In this document: piece by piece, positions 13,079-63,720 of the stretch
Numbering within the stretch: position 1 is the first letter of the stretch
Layout of the letters: each line of letters begins with the position of its first letter
Assembly: GCF_947496775.1 (NCBI RefSeq)
Contig: NZ_CANMDU010000007.1
Location: 1 to 64,000, forward strand
Direction: 5' to 3'
Length of the DNA stretch: 64,000 nt
DNA from: an uncultured Maribacter sp.
GTDB taxonomy: Bacteria; Bacteroidota; Bacteroidia; Flavobacteriales; Flavobacteriaceae
Position numbers and translations under genes: made by a program
The notes under the pieces: model-generated
Seen by the model: only the letters and a program-made list of their open reading frames with translations
Told to the model about the DNA's origin: nothing
Database searches by the model: none

Positions 13079-13819
13079 ATGGGAAAATTTTTTGCCTACA
13101 TACTAACTCCAATATTTGCATTCTTTTTTATGCTTATTTTATTGGTTTTTCAACCAATTCAATGGATTTGTTTCAATGTATTTGGTTATAAAGCGCATAG
13201 TATTAGTGTAAACTACTTTAATTTATGTTTAATAAGATGCACCCATATTATAGGTACAACTTATAAGTTTAACAATCCTCACAACATACCAACAAACAGA
13301 CCTTTAATAATAGTATCTAACCACCAAAGCATGTATGAGATTTCTCCTATAAGCTGGTGGATGCGTAAACATCATCCAAAGTTTGTGAGCAAAAAAGAAT
13401 TAGGAAAAGGTATTCCTAGTGTTTCTTACAATTTAAAACATGGTGGTTCTGTTCTTATAGATCGCAACGATGGCAAACAAGCTATTAAAGAAATTGCAAA
13501 ACTAGGCTCTTATATAGAAGAGCATAACCGAAGTGCTGTAATATTCCCCGAAGGTACTCGTAGTAGAACTGGGCATCCAAAAAAGTTCCAAACTATGGGA
13601 CTCAAAATATTAATTAAAAAAGCACCCTCCGCGTTAATAGTACCTATTAGTGTAAACGATTCATGGAAAATGTTACGGTATGGTAAATTTCCTAATGGTC
13701 TAGGTAGCCACATTACTATAGATGTACACAAACCGTTAGAAATAGAAGGTAATATTGATGATTTAATTGCCACAATAGAAAAGACTGTTGCACAAGGCGT
13801 AAATTCTTTTAAAGCATAA
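13079..13819 (+). CDS. plsC: 1-acyl-sn-glycerol-3-phosphate acyltransferase (PlsC-like)
   Basis: A 246-residue membrane-associated acyltransferase of phospholipid synthesis. It has an N-terminal hydrophobic segment (about 6-30) and then the acyltransferase motifs. Motif I reads NHQSMYE, so the usual HX4D is HX4E here. Motif III FPEGTRSRTG is intact and VPISVNDSW fits motif IV. The start at MGKFF places the gene just after the terminator; the longer frame is rejected. It is followed after 11 bp by the HD hydrolase. Confidence 0.88.
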   Translation: MGKFFAYILTPIFAFFFMLILLVFQPIQWICFNVFGYKAHSISVNYFNLCLIRCTHIIGTTYKFNNPHNIPTNRPLIIVSNHQSMYEISPISWWMRKHHPKFVSKKELGKGIPSVSYNLKHGGSVLIDRNDGKQAIKEIAKLGSYIEEHNRSAVIFPEGTRSRTGHPKKFQTMGLKILIKKAPSALIVPISVNDSWKMLRYGKFPNGLGSHITIDVHKPLEIEGNIDDLIATIEKTVAQGVNSFKA

Positions 13820-13830
13820 AGTATCCTATT

Positions 13831-14499
13831 TTGAAAGATGAAAACGTAATACAAGAAACCATTTCCTTTGTAAAAAAAACTTTAGATGGCGCCGAAGGCG
13901 GACATGATTGGTTTCATATAGAACGTGTTTACAAAAACAGCCTGTTAATAGCAAAAGAAGAAAAGGTAGATATGCTTATTGTTTCTCTTGGTGCTTTGTT
14001 ACATGATATTGCAGATGCTAAATTTTATAATGGCGATGAGAGTATTGGTCCTAAAATAGCCAGCGATTTTTTACACTCTAAAGAGGTTATTCCAGAAGTA
14101 ATACACCATGTGGTAGCCATTATAGAAAATATTTCTTTTAAATCTTCTTTAGATAAAGGTAATCCGAAGAAGGAAAGGTTTAATTCTCTAGAATTACAAG
14201 TAGTACAAGACGCGGATCGTTTAGATGCTATTGGTGCCATAGGTATCGCAAGAACTTTTAACTATGGTGGATTTAAGAATAGACCCCTATACAACCCAAA
14301 TATTCTTCCTAATTTGGAAATAACGAAAGAAGAGTACAAAAAATCGACCGCCCCGACTATTAATCACTTTTACGAGAAACTACTTTTATTAAAAGACAAA
14401 ATGAATACCAATAGCGGCAAGAAACTAGCGGAAAAAAGACACCTGTTCATGGTTAATTACCTCAATCAATTTTATTCTGAGTGGAATGGCCAATCGTAG
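13831..14499 (+). CDS. HD domain phosphohydrolase (YedJ/PgpH-like)
   Basis: A 222-residue cytoplasmic metal-dependent phosphohydrolase. HD-fold residues are visible in GGHDWFHIERV, LLHDIADAKF and later QDADRLDAIGAIGIAR, the pattern of the YedJ group. The substrate is not known. The start is a TTG codon: the HD motif begins near residue 24, no in-frame ATG precedes it, and the ATG inside the first codons is out of frame. It is cotranscribed with plsC. Confidence 0.85.
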   Translation: MKDENVIQETISFVKKTLDGAEGGHDWFHIERVYKNSLLIAKEEKVDMLIVSLGALLHDIADAKFYNGDESIGPKIASDFLHSKEVIPEVIHHVVAIIENISFKSSLDKGNPKKERFNSLELQVVQDADRLDAIGAIGIARTFNYGGFKNRPLYNPNILPNLEITKEEYKKSTAPTINHFYEKLLLLKDKMNTNSGKKLAEKRHLFMVNYLNQFYSEWNGQS

Positions 14500-57848: not shown

Positions 57849-57986
57849 TTTTAGTAATAAGAGTTACTATAAAACAATAGACAATTTTCGATGAACTACA
57901 TAGTTAATTTAATCTAGTTGTTGTGAAAGTGCAAAAATATGATGTGTAAGAATATTCCTATTCAAAAAATTCTACAATTTCTTGTG

Positions 57987-59015: not shown

Positions 59016-59023
59016 TAATTTTG
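59016..59023 (+). promoter_or_regulatory. -7 box of the hflX promoter
   Basis: TAATTTTG matches TAnnTTTG, 15 bp before the hflX ATG at 59039. No good TTG is found at the usual distance. Confidence 0.5.
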
Positions 59024-59038
59024 CACTTTATAGAATTT

Positions 59039-60250
59039 ATGATAGAAAAGAAGACCACTGCCTATGAAAAGGCTGTTCTAATAGGCGTAATTAACAAAGA
59101 ACAGAATGAAGAGAAAGTTAAGGAATATTTAGACGAGCTAGAATTTCTTACCTATACTGCTGGTGGCGAAGTATTAAAACGCTTTGTACAAAAGATAGAT
59201 GTGCCAAATCCTAAAACTCTAATTGGTAGTGGTAAGATGGAGGAAGTTGAGGCTTATGTAGAAGCTAATAAAATAGGTTCTGTTATTTTCGATGATGAGC
59301 TTACTCCCGGGCAACAAAGAAATATAGAGAAACAATTACGATGTAAAATTATTGATAGGACCAGCCTAATTCTAGATATTTTTGCCCAACGCGCGCAAAC
59401 TAGTTACGCTAGAACCCAAGTAGAGTTAGCACAATACCAATATTTACTACCAAGATTAACTGGACTATGGACACACTTAGAAAGACAAAAAGGGGGAATT
59501 GGTATGCGTGGCCCAGGAGAAACAGAAATCGAAACAGATAGGCGTATTGTCCGCGACCGTATAACGCTACTTAAAAAGAAATTACTAAAAATTGATAAAC
59601 AAATGGGCACCCAACGAGGAAATCGTGGGGCATTAGTACGTGTTGCTTTAGTGGGTTATACCAATGTAGGTAAATCTACACTTATGAATGTTATAAGTAA
59701 AAGTGATGTTTTTGCAGAAAACAAACTTTTTGCAACATTAGATACTACCGTACGTAAAGTAGTTATAGGCAACTTGCCTTTTCTTTTAAGTGATACAGTT
59801 GGTTTTATACGGAAACTACCAACCCAATTGGTAGAGAGTTTTAAAAGTACGTTAGACGAAGTCAGAGAGGCCGATTTACTGTTACATGTTGTAGATATTA
59901 GCCACCCAAACTTTGAAGAACATATAGATTCTGTTCATAAAATTTTATCCGAGATAAAAAGCAGGGATAAGAAAACTATTATGGTGTTTAATAAAATTGA
60001 CCAGTACAAACATGAGACTATAGAGGAAGATGACCTAATAACAGAAAAAACCTCAAAACACTTTACTATTGCAGAATGGAAAAAAACTTGGATGCAAAAA
60101 GTAGGAGATAGAGCCCTTTTTATATCCGCACTAAACAAAGAGAATTTAGATGAATTTAGAAAACGAGTTTATAATGAAGTTCGCGATATTCATGTAACAC
60201 GGTTTCCGTATAATAATTTCTTATACCCGGAACATTTGGATGAGTATTAA
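59039..60250 (+). CDS. hflX: GTPase HflX
   Basis: A 403-residue ribosome-associated GTPase that splits stalled or hibernating 70S ribosomes. The N-terminal HflX domain has the signature QKGGIGMRGPGETEIETDRR; the G domain has the P-loop VGYTNVGKST, the G3 DTVGFIRKLP and the NKID specificity motif. I start at MIEKKTTAYEK, as related proteins do; six residues further upstream appear non-coding. An intrinsic terminator follows 38 bp after the stop. Confidence 0.94.
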   Translation: MIEKKTTAYEKAVLIGVINKEQNEEKVKEYLDELEFLTYTAGGEVLKRFVQKIDVPNPKTLIGSGKMEEVEAYVEANKIGSVIFDDELTPGQQRNIEKQLRCKIIDRTSLILDIFAQRAQTSYARTQVELAQYQYLLPRLTGLWTHLERQKGGIGMRGPGETEIETDRRIVRDRITLLKKKLLKIDKQMGTQRGNRGALVRVALVGYTNVGKSTLMNVISKSDVFAENKLFATLDTTVRKVVIGNLPFLLSDTVGFIRKLPTQLVESFKSTLDEVREADLLLHVVDISHPNFEEHIDSVHKILSEIKSRDKKTIMVFNKIDQYKHETIEEDDLITEKTSKHFTIAEWKKTWMQKVGDRALFISALNKENLDEFRKRVYNEVRDIHVTRFPYNNFLYPEHLDEY

Positions 60251-60321: not shown

Positions 60322-60391
60322 GCCTGTAAAAGATAAAATAAATTATAAAAAGTGTAGTTCATCGAAGAAAGAATACCACTCGTATTTTTCA

Positions 60392-60454
60392 CAACATTAT
60401 AGAGTTCGTTCACAACATAAATTGCGCAAAAACTTATCTCCTATACTATCTTTG
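60392..60454 (+). promoter_or_regulatory. Promoter and direct-repeat operator of ncRNA copy 1
   Basis: TTG at 60422-60424 and TATCTTTG at 60447-60454, 22 bp apart, fit the Bacteroidota promoter (TTG, about 19-23 bp, TAnnTTTG). Upstream, TTCACAACATTA and TTCACAACATAA (CAACA cores at 60392 and 60413) form a direct repeat with 21-bp spacing, two helical turns, a typical arrangement for a regulator bound on one face. Copies 2 and 3 have the same sequence at offsets of 367 and 2760 bp. Confidence 0.7.
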
Positions 60455-60460
60455 AAATGT

Positions 60461-60662
60461 AATTAAGATATAGTGTTTATCCCAAATAAATACTAGAACT
60501 TAACCGAAAAAACAACCAAGTGTCTTTTCCCCAAAAAATGATACTTAACCTTAAAAAATTACCGAAATAAATAACCTCGATTATCGAGTAAATTTCGAAC
60601 CCAAATTTTACAGAATACCTACTTAACTAAAAAATTGGCCCTTTCCCAAAAGGGCTTTTTTT
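60461..60662 (+). ncRNA. Putative small RNA, copy 1 (about 200 nt)
   Basis: Predicted from an exact TAnnTTTG promoter and a terminator about 200 nt apart, with no coding potential. The start is estimated. Hairpins in order: 60473-60480 with 60486-60493 (loop CCCAA); 60518-60524 with 60540-60546 (loop UUUUCCCCAAAAAAU); 60576-60580 with 60584-60588; AAATTT around CGAACCC (60590-60608 region); terminator 60638-60644 with 60649-60655 (loop CCCA). Four loops thus expose C-rich runs. ACTTAAC occurs three times. Not a sequence I recognise; tmRNA and 6S RNA do not fit. Confidence 0.7.
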
Positions 60663-60723
60663 ATGCCCTACAATTGCAATATTTTAAAATAGTTTTATTG
60701 CTTATTTAAGTCCCTGTGCTGCA

Positions 60724-61030
60724 GTTCATCGAAGAAAGAATACCACTCGTATTTTTCACAACATTATAGAGTTCGTTCACAACATAAATTGCGCAAAAAC
60801 TTATCTCCTATGCTATCTTTGAAATGTAATTAAGATATAGTGTTTACCCCAAATAAATGCTAGAACTTAACCGAAAAAACAACCAAGTGTCTTTTCCCCA
60901 AAAAAATGATACTTAACCTAAAAAATTACCGAAATAAATAACCTCGATTATCGAGTAAATTTCGAACCCAAATGTTACAGAATACCTACTTAACTAAAAA
61001 ATTGGCCCTTTCCCAAAAGGGCTTTTTTTA
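60724..61030 (+). repeat. Direct-repeat unit, copy 2 (307 bp)
   Basis: It lies 60 bp after copy 1 in the same orientation and is about 97-98 percent identical by eye. Changes include ATACT to ATGCT, TTATCCC to TTACCCC and AAATTTTAC to AAATGTTAC. The promoter block (TTG 60789-60791, TATCTTTG 60814-60821) and the CAACA direct repeat (60759 and 60780) are unchanged. Confidence 0.95.
60828..61029 (+). ncRNA. Putative small RNA, copy 2
   Basis: It has the same architecture as copy 1, with terminator stem 61005-61011 with 61016-61022 (loop CCCA) and seven T residues. In the first hairpin, A-to-G changes in the right arm replace A-U by G-U pairs, which keeps the helix. Its terminator faces the 3' end of the small gene at 61041 on the opposite strand, 11 bp away. 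Confidence 0.68.
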
Positions 61031-61040
61031 TGACAAAATA

Positions 61041-61328
61041 CTACACAGCCACTAAACCCGAAGTAATATTCAAATCTTCCTGTAAGCAATACTTCCATTT
61101 TACAAACAAATCTATACCACCAATAACATCGTGATCTTTAAATAAATCTCCTAATTGTTGGCTATGTAAAAACTTAAAATAAAAAGGCGCTTGTAATCTC
61201 CATGGCATTTGCTTTAAAGGATAAATCTCATTTGTATCTTCTCGATAATACAAATTAGAATTTTTGTCTAGATATAGTTTTAGATGTAACTCCTTTAAAT
61301 CAAAAATCTCATAAAACTCTTGGCTCAT
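61041..61328 (-). CDS. Hypothetical protein (95 aa)
   Basis: A 95-residue soluble protein beginning MSQEFYEIFDLKELHLKLYL, rich in Leu, Phe and Tyr, with MPWRLQAPFYFKFLHSQ in the middle. No family or motif is recognised. It lies between ncRNA copies 2 and 3 and is convergent with copy 2. Codon use looks like that of the neighbours. Confidence 0.6.
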   Translation of the reverse strand: MSQEFYEIFDLKELHLKLYLDKNSNLYYREDTNEIYPLKQMPWRLQAPFYFKFLHSQQLGDLFKDHDVIGGIDLFVKWKYCLQEDLNITSGLVAV

Positions 61329-61580
61329 ATCCTATTTTTATAAAACATAGTAGCACTTAAAAGCACAACCAATCCATATCTATTATAAATAATTTATTTT
61401 GCATGTTACCTATTTAAAAATCACCTTTTTATATCGGTGCAATTAAGATATGGATTATGTAACAGATTGTGGCTTAAAATAATTTACTTATCTTTTGTTT
61501 CTTATTAGTAAAAGTAATAAAAAATAGTTCACAGTAGTACATAAAAGTACATTTTTTGAAATAAAGTCCTACAAATATTT

Positions 61581-62009
61581 ATGAAAACTAACGAAATTAT
61601 AGACTTTTTACTTTCAGAATTTCAGACAGATAAAGCAGGGCTTGCCACTATTTTAAATGTACATAAATCTACTATAAGTAATATTAGTAAAGGCTACACC
61701 AAAAAAATATCTTCTAAACTAGCGCATAGCATTACTTTAGTAAAGCCAGAAATAAATTACGAGTTTATCATTGGTAATAGTGATCAAAAATATGTTTCTG
61801 ACGACCGCAAAAATGTATCAAGGCAGGTTTGTCTAGACACAAAAGGGAAAAATAGAATTACAATAGAAGAAATAACAACGTTTATTGTAAATCATATTGA
61901 AGAGTTTGAAAAGAATGAAATCTTTAAAATTTACAAAAATTCACTTGTTAATCAGGCAAAAGTAGAGTTATTACAAGAGCAACTGTTACTTAAAAACTCT
62001 ATGAAATAA
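61581..62009 (+). CDS. Helix-turn-helix DNA-binding protein, phage- or repressor-like
   Basis: A 142-residue protein. Residues about 15-50 (DKAGLATILNVHKSTISNISKGYTKKIS) have the form of an XRE-type helix-turn-helix; a polar linker follows and the C-terminal 40 residues (VNHIEEFEKNEIFKIYKNSL) predict a coiled coil, probably for dimerisation. No close family is named. It may regulate its own locus or the flanking ncRNA units. It is convergent with the 102-residue gene at 62016. Confidence 0.75.
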   Translation: MKTNEIIDFLLSEFQTDKAGLATILNVHKSTISNISKGYTKKISSKLAHSITLVKPEINYEFIIGNSDQKYVSDDRKNVSRQVCLDTKGKNRITIEEITTFIVNHIEEFEKNEIFKIYKNSLVNQAKVELLQEQLLLKNSMK

Positions 62010-62015
62010 GACTTA

Positions 62016-62324
62016 TTATACACCAGCCAAAACCCTAGTCACATCCTTTTCTGTTAATTGATCTAGACCTAGATCATGTAATAAGGTTAATATTTTAAGA
62101 TTTTTAACACGCTTTTTCGCAGCCTCATTTTTAGCGTTTATTTCTTTTACTTTTTTATTCGTAAACAAGCTTTTTAAATAGCCCTTTTCGCTATCTCCTT
62201 CCTCGTCTCTTTCATTAAATTCATCTATTATAGTACTTAGTACAATAATGGTTTCTTCCACAGATAAATCGCCAGCGCTAAGTTGGTGGCGTACTTCTTT
62301 AATTTGGTTAATTAAATCTTGCAT
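62016..62324 (-). CDS. Hypothetical helical protein (102 aa)
   Basis: A 102-residue protein beginning MQDLINQIKEVRHQLSAGDL, with strongly charged helical stretches (FNERDEEGDSEKGY, NAKNEAAKKRVKNLKIL) and a final LTEKDVTRVLAGV. No motif is recognised; it may be a small adaptor. It is 10 bp downstream of the membrane-protein gene and likely in the same operon. Confidence 0.6.
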   Translation of the reverse strand: MQDLINQIKEVRHQLSAGDLSVEETIIVLSTIIDEFNERDEEGDSEKGYLKSLFTNKKVKEINAKNEAAKKRVKNLKILTLLHDLGLDQLTEKDVTRVLAGV

Positions 62325-62334
62325 AGTAGGGTTT

Positions 62335-62832
62335 TTAATTTTCAGATACCGTTTTGGCCTTTAATATGTGTAGTATTTCTTGTGCCTCTTGTTGAAATTC
62401 TTTTTTAAGTGTTGTTTGATGATTATGCCACAGTGCTATTTTTTTTATTAGATACATTAATAATAAAAAGCTAAGACAGGAACCTATAGCGTAAATTTGT
62501 AAGTAGATTTCATCAAAATAAAACTGTGGTTGAAAAATCCAAACTATTTGAACAGCATAACAATATATTGGAATCAAAAAAGAAAGTAGATATGGCTTAA
62601 ATTGAAAACCAATAATCATTATTACTGGTGCAATAGATTGCGTAAAAGCCCATATAAAATTAGAATAATTACTAAAACCAAAAGTATTGCTTCCTTCTAT
62701 ATTTAATAATAGAAAAACCTTGTCTAGGTATAATAATAATCCAGACAAGGCAACAAATATCGAAGCTAAAACTCTTCTATTTTCTAATCTATTTTTGAGT
62801 CCCAGGCCTTTGAATTCCTCTATCCATTCCAT
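62335..62832 (-). CDS. Small integral membrane protein (165 aa), unknown function
   Basis: Four hydrophobic segments (ILASIFVALSGLLLYL, FIWAFTQSIAPVIMIIGFQF, LLSFLIPIYCYAVQIVWI, IYAIGSCLSFLLLMYLI) with a charged C-terminal tail (EFQQEAQEILHILKAKT). No family is recognised. The start overlaps the end of the small lipoprotein gene by 44 bp in another frame, so a slightly later start is possible. It is followed after 10 bp by the 102-residue gene. Confidence 0.65.
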   Translation of the reverse strand: MEWIEEFKGLGLKNRLENRRVLASIFVALSGLLLYLDKVFLLLNIEGSNTFGFSNYSNFIWAFTQSIAPVIMIIGFQFKPYLLSFLIPIYCYAVQIVWIFQPQFYFDEIYLQIYAIGSCLSFLLLMYLIKKIALWHNHQTTLKKEFQQEAQEILHILKAKTVSEN

Positions 62833-62932
62833 ACAATGTCTCTGTTTCAGCGGTGTCTGTTTTTGTACAAGAACTTACAAAGCCAATTAAAAATACTACC
62901 GCGATTACTGCTAAAAAATTTTTTGTTTTCAT
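62789..62932 (-). CDS. Tiny lipoprotein (47 aa)
   Basis: Read directly on the minus strand: ATG to TAG, 47 residues. The signal peptide (MKTKNFLAVIAVVFLIGFVSSC) is followed by a short polar tail (TKTDTAETETLYGMDRG). The SSC lipobox with Cys22 is exactly that of Bacteroidota lipoproteins, a strong argument that it is real despite the length. It leads a leftward group with the membrane protein and the 102-residue gene. Confidence 0.65.
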   Translation of the reverse strand: MKTKNFLAVIAVVFLIGFVSSCTKTDTAETETLYGMDRGIQRPGTQK

Positions 62933-63116
62933 AATAACATGCATTTTAAATTATTTATACATGTAAATTACAAAACTCACGGTAAATGTAGGAAATAATT
63001 AACTTACAAAATGTAGGTTTTTCCCTCGTTTTTACTCTTTAGTATGTATAGAGAATTAAAAACTATTTCTACAGCCCCATTTTCTGAAAATAAAAAACAA
63101 CAACTTTAAAACTGCG

Positions 63117-63420
63117 GTTCATCGAAGAAAGAATACCACTCGTATTTTTCACAACATTATAGAGTTCGTTCACAACATAAATTGCGCAAAAACTTATCTC
63201 CTATACTATCTTTGTAATGTAATTAAGATATAGTGTTTATCCCAAATGAATGCTAGAACTTAACCAAAAAAAACCAAGTGTCTTTTCCCCAAAAAATGAT
63301 ACTTAACCTAAAAGAATTACCGAGATAAATAACCTCGATTATCGAGTAAATTTCGGACCCAAATTTTACAGAATACCTACTTAACTAAAAAATTGGCCCT
63401 TTCCCAAAAGGGCTTTTTTA
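63117..63420 (+). repeat. Direct-repeat unit, copy 3 (304 bp)
   Basis: The third unit in the same orientation, about 95 percent identical to copies 1 and 2. The promoter block (TTG 63182-63184, TATCTTTG 63207-63214) and the CAACA pair (63152 and 63173) are unchanged. Differences lie in the transcribed part: TTTGAAATG to TTTGTAATG, AAATAAAT to AAATGAAT, CCGAAATAAA to CCGAGATAAA and a shortened A-rich tract. Confidence 0.95.
63221..63419 (+). ncRNA. Putative small RNA, copy 3
   Basis: Same architecture; terminator stem 63396-63402 with 63407-63413 (loop CCCA) and six T residues. In the first hairpin two A-to-G changes in the right arm give U-G pairs, keeping the helix. Coordinates of the 5' end are an estimate from the -7 box. 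Confidence 0.68.
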
Positions 63421-63480
63421 TTTCTATTATTTTTTAATATATGTATTTCAGCGATAAAACATGCTTTTTAACGGATTACG

Positions 63481-63542
63481 CAACAGAAATAGGCCATTTT
63501 ACAACAAAATTTTTTGCATTATCCTTTTCGTCTATACATTCG
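63481..63542 (+). promoter_or_regulatory. Promoter and CAACA direct repeat of the diverged fourth unit
   Basis: TTG (63514-63516), 18 bp, TACATTCG (63535-63542) is a one-mismatch form of the Bacteroidota promoter. CAACA cores lie at 63481 and 63502, again exactly 21 bp apart, as in copies 1-3, although the surrounding sequence has diverged. Confidence 0.5.
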
Positions 63543-63548
63543 TTTTGT

Positions 63549-63716
63549 ATTTAAAACTAAATGTTTTGTCCCGAATAAAAACCTTATTTTTTTGATACTT
63601 AAATAAGGCCTCTTACTGCGAATCTTTAACATAACTCTTATGTTATATTATAGACTGTGTAAACCAAATTTAACGTATCCTACTTAATAAAATAAAGCCC
63701 TCTAATGAGGGCTTTA
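63549..63716 (+). ncRNA. Putative small RNA, diverged fourth member
   Basis: About 170 nt that align with copies 1-3 in blocks: ATGTTTTGTCCCGAATAAAA with GTGTTTATCCCAAATAAAT, GATACTTAA, and near the end CCTACTTAATAAAATAAAGCCC with CCTACTTAACTAAAAAATTG plus GCCC. A hairpin AACATAA-CTC-TTATGTT (63628-63644) sits where copies 1-3 have CTCGA-TTA-TCGAG: the same place, different sequence. A second stem CCTTATTT / AAATAAGG (63582-63608) is present. The terminator stem is 63695-63702 with 63707-63714. Confidence 0.55.
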
Positions 63717-63720
63717 CTAT

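Follow-up and report, generated by a model that had tools for sequence, protein, structure and literature searches.

The first 64,000 nucleotides of contig NZ_CANMDU010000007.1 of an uncultured Maribacter sp. (assembly GCF_947496775.1; this whole stretch is referred to as the window) carry an array of predicted small RNA (sRNA) units, which consists of three near-identical units of one type (A) and one unit of a sister type (B) of the same family. The RNA family is structured, seems to be undescribed and, within the range of the searches, occurs in one part of the Flavobacteriaceae only. We lean towards an interpretation in which the units encode trans-acting multicopy sRNAs under LytTR control, whose redundant CCCCAAA loops pair with mRNAs in an LhrC-like manner. 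From the letters of the window, the array had been proposed to be a multicopy sRNA locus not described before, with LhrC of Listeria as a comparable case (the original prediction). This proposal is supported by the conserved promoter/terminator layout, the strong covariation, the absence of any Rfam match at gathering score and the location of the genome's own 6S-Flavo RNA elsewhere. The 21-bp-period direct repeat upstream of the units, the family-wide distribution, the occurrence of the sister type in other genera and the probable LytTR regulator were not part of it.

Units of the array

The type-A units U1, U2 and U3 begin at 60357, 60724 and 63117, in the places and the common orientation given by the original prediction, and U2 and U3 are 98% and 97% identical to U1 over 309 nt. 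They are the only full unit matches in the 3.96-Mb genome, which has one additional 29-nt match on contig C1. Each of the three carries a −7 box, TATCTTTG, of the TAnnTTTG type, and an intrinsic terminator, GGCCCTTTCCCAAAAGGGC, followed by a T-run. The promoter had been read earlier as TTG/TAnnTTTG. The TAnnTTTG box stands, whereas the TTG lies 22 nt from it and is not kept, the consensus of 80 units of the family being AATAATTTAG at this place. The terminators proposed for the three units were recovered by a terminator scan, which listed 12 terminator-like sites (1.3 ± 1.3 in shuffled sequence); the reverse strand within units accounts for seven of them, and two (62269 and 62275) are unrelated.

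With the start placed so that the −7 box occupies −12 to −5, as in PMC9723704, U1 is predicted to give a 205-nt RNA running from 60459 to ~60663, close to the 60461–60662 suggested before. The predicted RNA is made up of hairpin H1 with a CCCAAA loop, hairpin H2 with a CCCC loop, a variable third stem, the ACCUACUUAA motif and the terminator, in this order.

The diverged fourth unit, U4 (63450–63720), can be aligned with U1–U3 in blocks and has the same layout, as had been described. Its hairpin, AAAGCCCTCTAATGAGGGCTTT, is followed by an interrupted T-run, is not listed by the terminator scan and forms a weak terminator. The 24 distinct type-B units, to which U4 belongs, start near GTATTT, mostly contain GTCCC or a near form of it, and end in CCTACTTA or a near form followed by a hairpin. 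Each of the 24 is preceded, on the same strand, by a type-A unit whose match lies no more than ~150 nt away.

Table 1. Features of the array and its upstream neighbour (window coordinates)
Feature	Positions	Strand	Remarks
U1 upstream box GTTCATCGAA	60357–60366	+	−102 to −93; TTCATCGA at ≤1 mismatch in 26/30 RNA-model loci
U1 direct repeat TTCACAACA-N12-TTCACAACA, predicted LytTR operator	60388–60417	+	0 mismatches; N12 in 30/30 loci
U1 −7 box TATCTTTG (TAnnTTTG)	60447–60454	+	Box type as in PMC9723704
U1 type-A sRNA, predicted transcript	60459–60663	+	R1 match 60458–60547, 51.1 bits; terminator 60637–60663
U2 upstream box (60724–60733) and direct repeat (60755–60784)	60724–60784	+	
U2 type-A sRNA, predicted transcript	60826–61030	+	R1 match 60825–60915, 52.7 bits; terminator from 61004
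U3 upstream box (63117–63126) and direct repeat (63148–63177)	63117–63177	+	
U3 type-A sRNA, predicted transcript	63219–63420	+	R1 match 63218–63305, 51.3 bits; terminator from 63395
U4 direct repeat TACGCAACA-N12-TTTACAACA	63477–63506	+	2 mismatches
U4 type-B sRNA, predicted transcript: GTATTTAAAAC...GTCCC...ATCCTACTTAATAAAA and hairpin	63547–63720	+	Among 24 distinct type-B units
hflX, frequent upstream neighbour, outside units	59021–60250	+	NCBIfam TIGR03156 GTPase HflX, above cut-off

Membership and structure of the RNA family

DNA similarity places units in 12 of 60 relatives (own genome counted), including all seven other genus members sampled. An exact-pattern scan of a named genome collection gave 57 stretches in genera that include Maribacter, Zobellia, Eudoraea, Muriicola, Arenibacter, Euzebyella, Pseudozobellia, Kriegella, Pricia, Ulvibacterium, Aurantibacter and Pelagihabitans. 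This pattern, which fixes N12 and TGTAATTAAG, supplied many loci of the set of 80 distinct full units extracted from fetched loci (Maribacter, Zobellia, Eudoraea, Arenibacter and Kriegella among them). The set is what was left of 144 nhmmer rows after removal of L032 (the window's own DNA), scores below 75, incomplete matches and duplicates. Two of its units have no recognisable start, and motif and open reading frame (ORF) counts refer to the other 78, whose median predicted transcript length is 168 nt. The 80-unit consensus reads GTTCATCGAA ... TTTTTCACAACA-N12-TTCACAACA ... TA-box ... GTGTAATTAAGTGATAGTGTTGACCCCAAATC in its 5′ part and continues with GAACTTAACCGAAA ... TTTCCCCAAATCG ... ACTTAACCTA ... 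AACCTACTTAACTAAAAAA into the terminator.

The folds of U1 and U4 (63550–63720) beat all 200 dinucleotide shuffles, with z-scores of −4.5 and −5.0, respectively. R1, a covariance model that spans H1 and H2 (84 positions, 21 pairs), was built from 14 chosen units with a structure given by hand by someone who knew the sequences, so the R1 structure is partly the analyst's choice. The model has 101 matches at E ≤ 0.1 across the 61 sources searched, seeds counted in, the E-values being rough because of a shortened calibration. In the 97 distinct R1 rows, 80.7% of cells are paired, compared to 73.0% in shuffled and 21.9–47.3% in slid controls, two-sided changes amount to 150 cells against 46.1 ± 8.9 in shuffles (none of 500 was as high), and the covariation score is 0.246 against 0.129 when shuffled and at most 0.066 when slid, all measured on an alignment that was fitted to the R1 structure and is therefore biased towards it. 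The strongest structural support comes from H2, in which all eight pairs show two-sided change and the letters of the stem vary. The outer stem of H1 (UUAAGU/ACUUAA) is 94.6% paired and almost invariant, so it carries little information on pairing. RNAalifold, applied to a plain MAFFT alignment, found the terminator stem only, because the arms of H2 differ in length.

A CCC(C)AA match is found in the H1 stretch of 69 of the 78 units and in the H2 stretch (taken as a broad window) of 74, and CCTACTT is present in 67. Two hairpin loops of the RNA are predicted to display CCC(C)AAA, a third CCAAA stretch is often present, and ACCUACUUAA would stay unpaired ahead of the terminator. A redundant unpaired motif is thus combined with a conserved secondary structure, as in sRNAs of the LhrC-like kind. 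In three loci (L035:7083–7289, L042:9177–9404 and L096:6253–6447), a palindrome (CCCGATAGTTGTCGGGA or CCCGATAGCTATCGGGA) at the H1 loop alters the conserved loop, and in L041 (~13753–14271; G006:C76) an insertion of ~160 bp within the RNA splits a type-A unit.

Genes of small proteins are a very improbable reading of these units. The longest closed ORF, with any start, spans at most 44 codons (median 22) in the 78 units, and 25 of them have an ATG ORF of at least 10 codons; the other 53 have none. Moreover, U1–U3 are separated by 1–2 nt indels within the RNA, which argue against a common reading frame, and the base pairs are compensatory.

Distribution and genomic place

In a sample of the family Flavobacteriaceae, R1 has 73 matches in 36 of 397 genomes and 24 of 237 genera, with at most five per genome; the filters were strict and some weak matches were lost. 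Across a sample of the phylum, four of 395 genomes were matched, all of them Flavobacteriaceae. A search of the window and 15 loci against Rfam 15 gave no match at the gathering cut-off. When E-values up to 5 were admitted, there were six matches, none of which reached the cut-off. The 6S-Flavo RNA (RF01685) has a single match in the genome, on contig C8, and does not match the units. The earlier statement that no named RNA fits is in line with these results. Among the top matches listed in a search of the open-access literature, no paper deals with this RNA or with its regulator.

The units are frequently located behind hflX. Of 73 unit-bearing loci, 51 have this gene upstream in the same orientation, 48 of them within 200 nt; these loci are partly redundant, many end at 8 kb, and the other 22 may still have hflX. 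In the window, the four ORFs between U2 and U3 (95, 142, 102 and 165 aa; 61041–62832) have no Pfam match.

The near-identical tandem copies and their variable number would also suit inert or mobile repeats, an explanation that is scarcely credible, being already contradicted by the covariation, the conserved promoter layout and the place behind hflX. Viral contigs contain no match to one exact pattern, and plasmids contain none by blastn. Two of the three outcomes named in the original prediction as speaking against it are inert repeats scattered without promoter and terminator conservation, and an existing Rfam family. Here, the promoter and terminator layout is conserved, and no Rfam family covers the units.

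A predicted direct-repeat operator upstream of the units

The conserved parts of the promoter region are GTTCATCGAA and two TTCACAACA boxes, while the other upstream element is poorly kept. The pair of 9-mers, TTCACAACA-N12-TTCACAACA, is present in all 30 RNA-model loci (one per genome, kept from the 73 R1 matches), 40 nt (26 loci) or 41 nt (four loci) before the predicted start. The repeat has no mismatch to a degenerate pattern in 28 loci and two mismatches in two. That N12 also occurs in 78 of 78 pattern-biased units proves little, because the search pattern fixed N12 in many of these loci. The RNA-model test is fairer, with the reservation that the R1 seeds descend from pattern-found units and that some genomes are common to the exact-pattern scan and the 30-locus test. 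When the upstream regions of the 30 loci were reversed, four had no match, 24 had two to four mismatches and two had one mismatch; this control is not clean because reversed repeats retain the spacing.

Published LytTR repeats (PMC6193735) are pairs of 9-bp elements that stand upstream of the promoter and are mostly separated by 12 bp. The repeat of the units has this arrangement, with two 9-bp direct repeats within the described spacing of 11–13 bp upstream of the promoter. The own genome contains 21 repeat sites at up to two mismatches, four of which are the sRNA units, against four sites for the reversed pattern. In six genomes, there are 57 sites against six, sRNA units counted in. Some of the 21 sites lie, by eye, within coding sequence (e.g. 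L133 and L141) and look like chance matches; the inspection left out L134, L135, L142 and L143.

A putative regulon and a candidate sensor–regulator pair

Besides the array, sites of the repeat in the own genome precede several other genes. Three sites (C7:186541, 222142 and 226790) stand before genes linked to the type IX secretion system (T9SS) with CHU_C or SprB-repeat proteins, and PorP/SprF genes follow at two of them. In Maribacter, an ECF sigma factor gene (L128/L179, G000:C2:274145) has an imperfect repeat of the TTCACATCA-N12-TTTTACAACA type ahead of it. An imperfect site of this type was also seen in two other genera (G265:C1:4413170 and G385:C2:459820).

Another site precedes a TPR-HisKA_2 histidine-kinase gene. 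In 10 of 10 genomes, this gene adjoins and follows a LytTR response-regulator gene (89–100% identity; the LytTR and HisKA_2 domains were both identified), and the repeat is located between the two, 163–367 nt before the kinase match. The kinase-site repeats deviate at zero to two positions from a pattern in which one position may be A or C, and the kinase loci of the 10 genomes contain no other repeat within three mismatches, save a second upstream one in four. The kinase is found in 10 of 10 RNA-bearing genomes (E ≤ 4e-254) and, with the same query, in none of 12 RNA-lacking genomes from 11 genera (E ≤ 1e-90).

The units have their own predicted promoters, a poorly conserved upstream element and the direct repeat, and activation by the LytTR protein is therefore probable. 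We infer that the units are transcribed, that the LytTR regulator binds the repeat and that the sign of control is positive. Alternatively, the RNAs could be regulatory under another factor, to which the repeat would belong and of which the kinase gene would merely be a target. The argument for LytTR binding is one of geometry, position and co-occurrence only, and a second conserved box further upstream, GTTCATCGAA, has no assigned binder. Control by another factor is nevertheless unlikely, since the repeat has the geometry known from the literature on LytTR proteins and the site lies between the regulator and kinase genes in every one of the 10 genomes.

The repeat occurs at further places. 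Downstream of an imperfect repeat, L131 and L132 (G000:C1:849189 and 851734) show two very short RNA-like units (by eye, ~85 nt), the first reading ATGTAATAAAAAACG...ATATAGTGTTCTC and a hairpin; they are possibly a third sRNA type of the regulon. Repeats also precede tiny ORFs (32–33 aa where read) at L136 (G000:C6:22700) and, in other genera, at L187 and L190. These ORFs, e.g. MANKNQDNTAYLNFIQNLNEIL... and MEAQMNQTQE..., are not clearly related to each other. On the minus strand of the window, GTTCATCGAA and an imperfect TTCACAACA repeat (57887–57948) precede a subtilase-like gene (57824 leftwards; named by eye), and GTTCATCGAA or a one-mismatch form is kept before this gene in four other Maribacter loci (L038, L039, L040 and L042). 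The leader of the gene carries CCAAATCTTAC, which resembles the third module of some sRNAs, upstream of 57824 in the window and in L038, L039, L042, L045, L067 and L071.

Possible function of the conserved loops

In the interpretation we lean towards, each unit would be driven by its own promoter with the 21-bp-period direct repeat just upstream. The LytTR regulator encoded beside the TPR-HisKA_2 kinase gene, itself preceded by such a repeat, would probably activate T9SS adhesin operons and further genes along with all sRNA copies. The redundant loops would most likely pair with G-rich stretches of several mRNAs, e.g. those of envelope or secreted proteins, and alter their translation or stability, and several copies could give a fast and strong response, as in LhrC.

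A number of observations weigh against this interpretation. The letters of the repeat do not match the classical LytTR consensus, the co-occurrence of the kinase and the RNA follows phylogeny and may be inherited linkage, and the inner stem of H1 is weak, with 67.3% of cells paired. Pairing with particular targets is so far unsupported: searches by leader k-mers, complement patterns and duplex energies gave no target. The complement pattern ATTTGGGGA has 55 sites against 24 for the reversed pattern, and of the 30 loci kept, 20 are in ORFs in sense, three in antisense and seven between ORFs, with only two in sense at most 40 nt from a predicted start. TTAAGTAGG is not enriched (30 sites against 42, four of the 30 being the array itself), and its occurrence within the kinase gene is found at that place in one of 10 orthologues. 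Duplexes with eight regulon leaders have z-scores of −2.0 to +1.1. Furthermore, mRNAs of Flavobacterium psychrophilum are described as being without Shine-Dalgarno sequences (PMC9723704), which would deprive C-rich loops of their usual target.

Since the target searches were negative, pairing and protein titration both stay candidates. As decoys (sponges), the RNAs would use their CCCAAAU and ACUUAACC modules to titrate an RNA-binding protein, e.g. of the RRM type, much as the RNA CsrB titrates CsrA. At least three CCCAA/CCAAA matches are present in 76 of the 78 RNAs, overlaps within a run being counted separately, and 61 contain two or three copies of CTTAAC/CTTGAC/CTTAAT. The motifs are conserved in sequence, not in structure alone, and arrays would raise the dose. 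Similar stretches are seen by eye in some regulon leaders (L126 and L140), and CCAAATCTTAC occurs in seven of 242 leaders against none of 241 downstream stretches. All seven, however, come from a single gene, namely the window's subtilase and the corresponding genes at six loci, and other leader enrichment is scarce in this small and partly redundant sample (CCCAAAT in three leaders against none, CTTAACC in one against none, CCTACTT in four against none). The binding protein is itself hypothetical, and we regard titration as doubtful. A bolder scheme, which we consider a long shot, combines these elements into an RNA hub driven by the two-component system. Tandem A and B sRNAs with repeated CCCAAAU / ACUUAACC modules would titrate an RNA-binding protein of Shine-Dalgarno-poor bacteria and so determine how strongly type IX-secreted adhesins and enzymes, switched on by the same system, are translated, in long-standing linkage to hflX within one branch of the Flavobacteriaceae.

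Comparison with known sRNA systems

Judging by the open-access literature, experimental work on sRNAs of Flavobacteriaceae seems to be scarce. The family presented here adds a structured RNA in at least 24 genera, with a candidate operator and a candidate sensor–regulator pair tied to T9SS adhesin operons, and is a candidate for a new Rfam entry. It also raises the question of what C-rich loops aim at in bacteria described as having no Shine-Dalgarno sequences.

The 6S-Flavo RNA is likewise a flavobacterial non-coding RNA, with its own copy elsewhere in the genome, separate from the units. Rfp18 of F. psychrophilum is also a structured flavobacterial sRNA with several stem-loops, but, compared by description, it differs in being a single sRNA, with conservation across its genus; when it is deleted, two metalloprotease mRNAs decrease, and an adhesin is a predicted target (PMC9723704). 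FopS of Bacteroides thetaiotaomicron, in the same phylum, is a paralogous multicopy sRNA family like ours. By description, it differs in its length (~65–70 nt), its 14 members, its single extended 5′ seed, its canonical promoters and its occurrence in Bacteroidaceae, and a 41-nt RbpB-bound motif / R1 seed is reported for it (PMC11697453).

LhrC is an Rfam entry. No homology to it was found (there is no Rfam match), and the resemblance is one of working, not of descent. The regulator here would be of the LytTR type, and LhrC blocks a Shine-Dalgarno region (PMC4132741). LhrC1–5 of Listeria monocytogenes are multicopy sRNAs, all dependent on the LisRK two-component system. Their C-rich motifs are redundant, being found in two loops and also in a single-stranded stretch, and one of their targets is an adhesin mRNA (PMC4132741). 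The Maribacter array resembles them in its several similar copies, each of which has, as read from the DNA, its own promoter and terminator (a weak one in U4), in its redundant C-rich loops and in its predicted dependence on a single two-component system.

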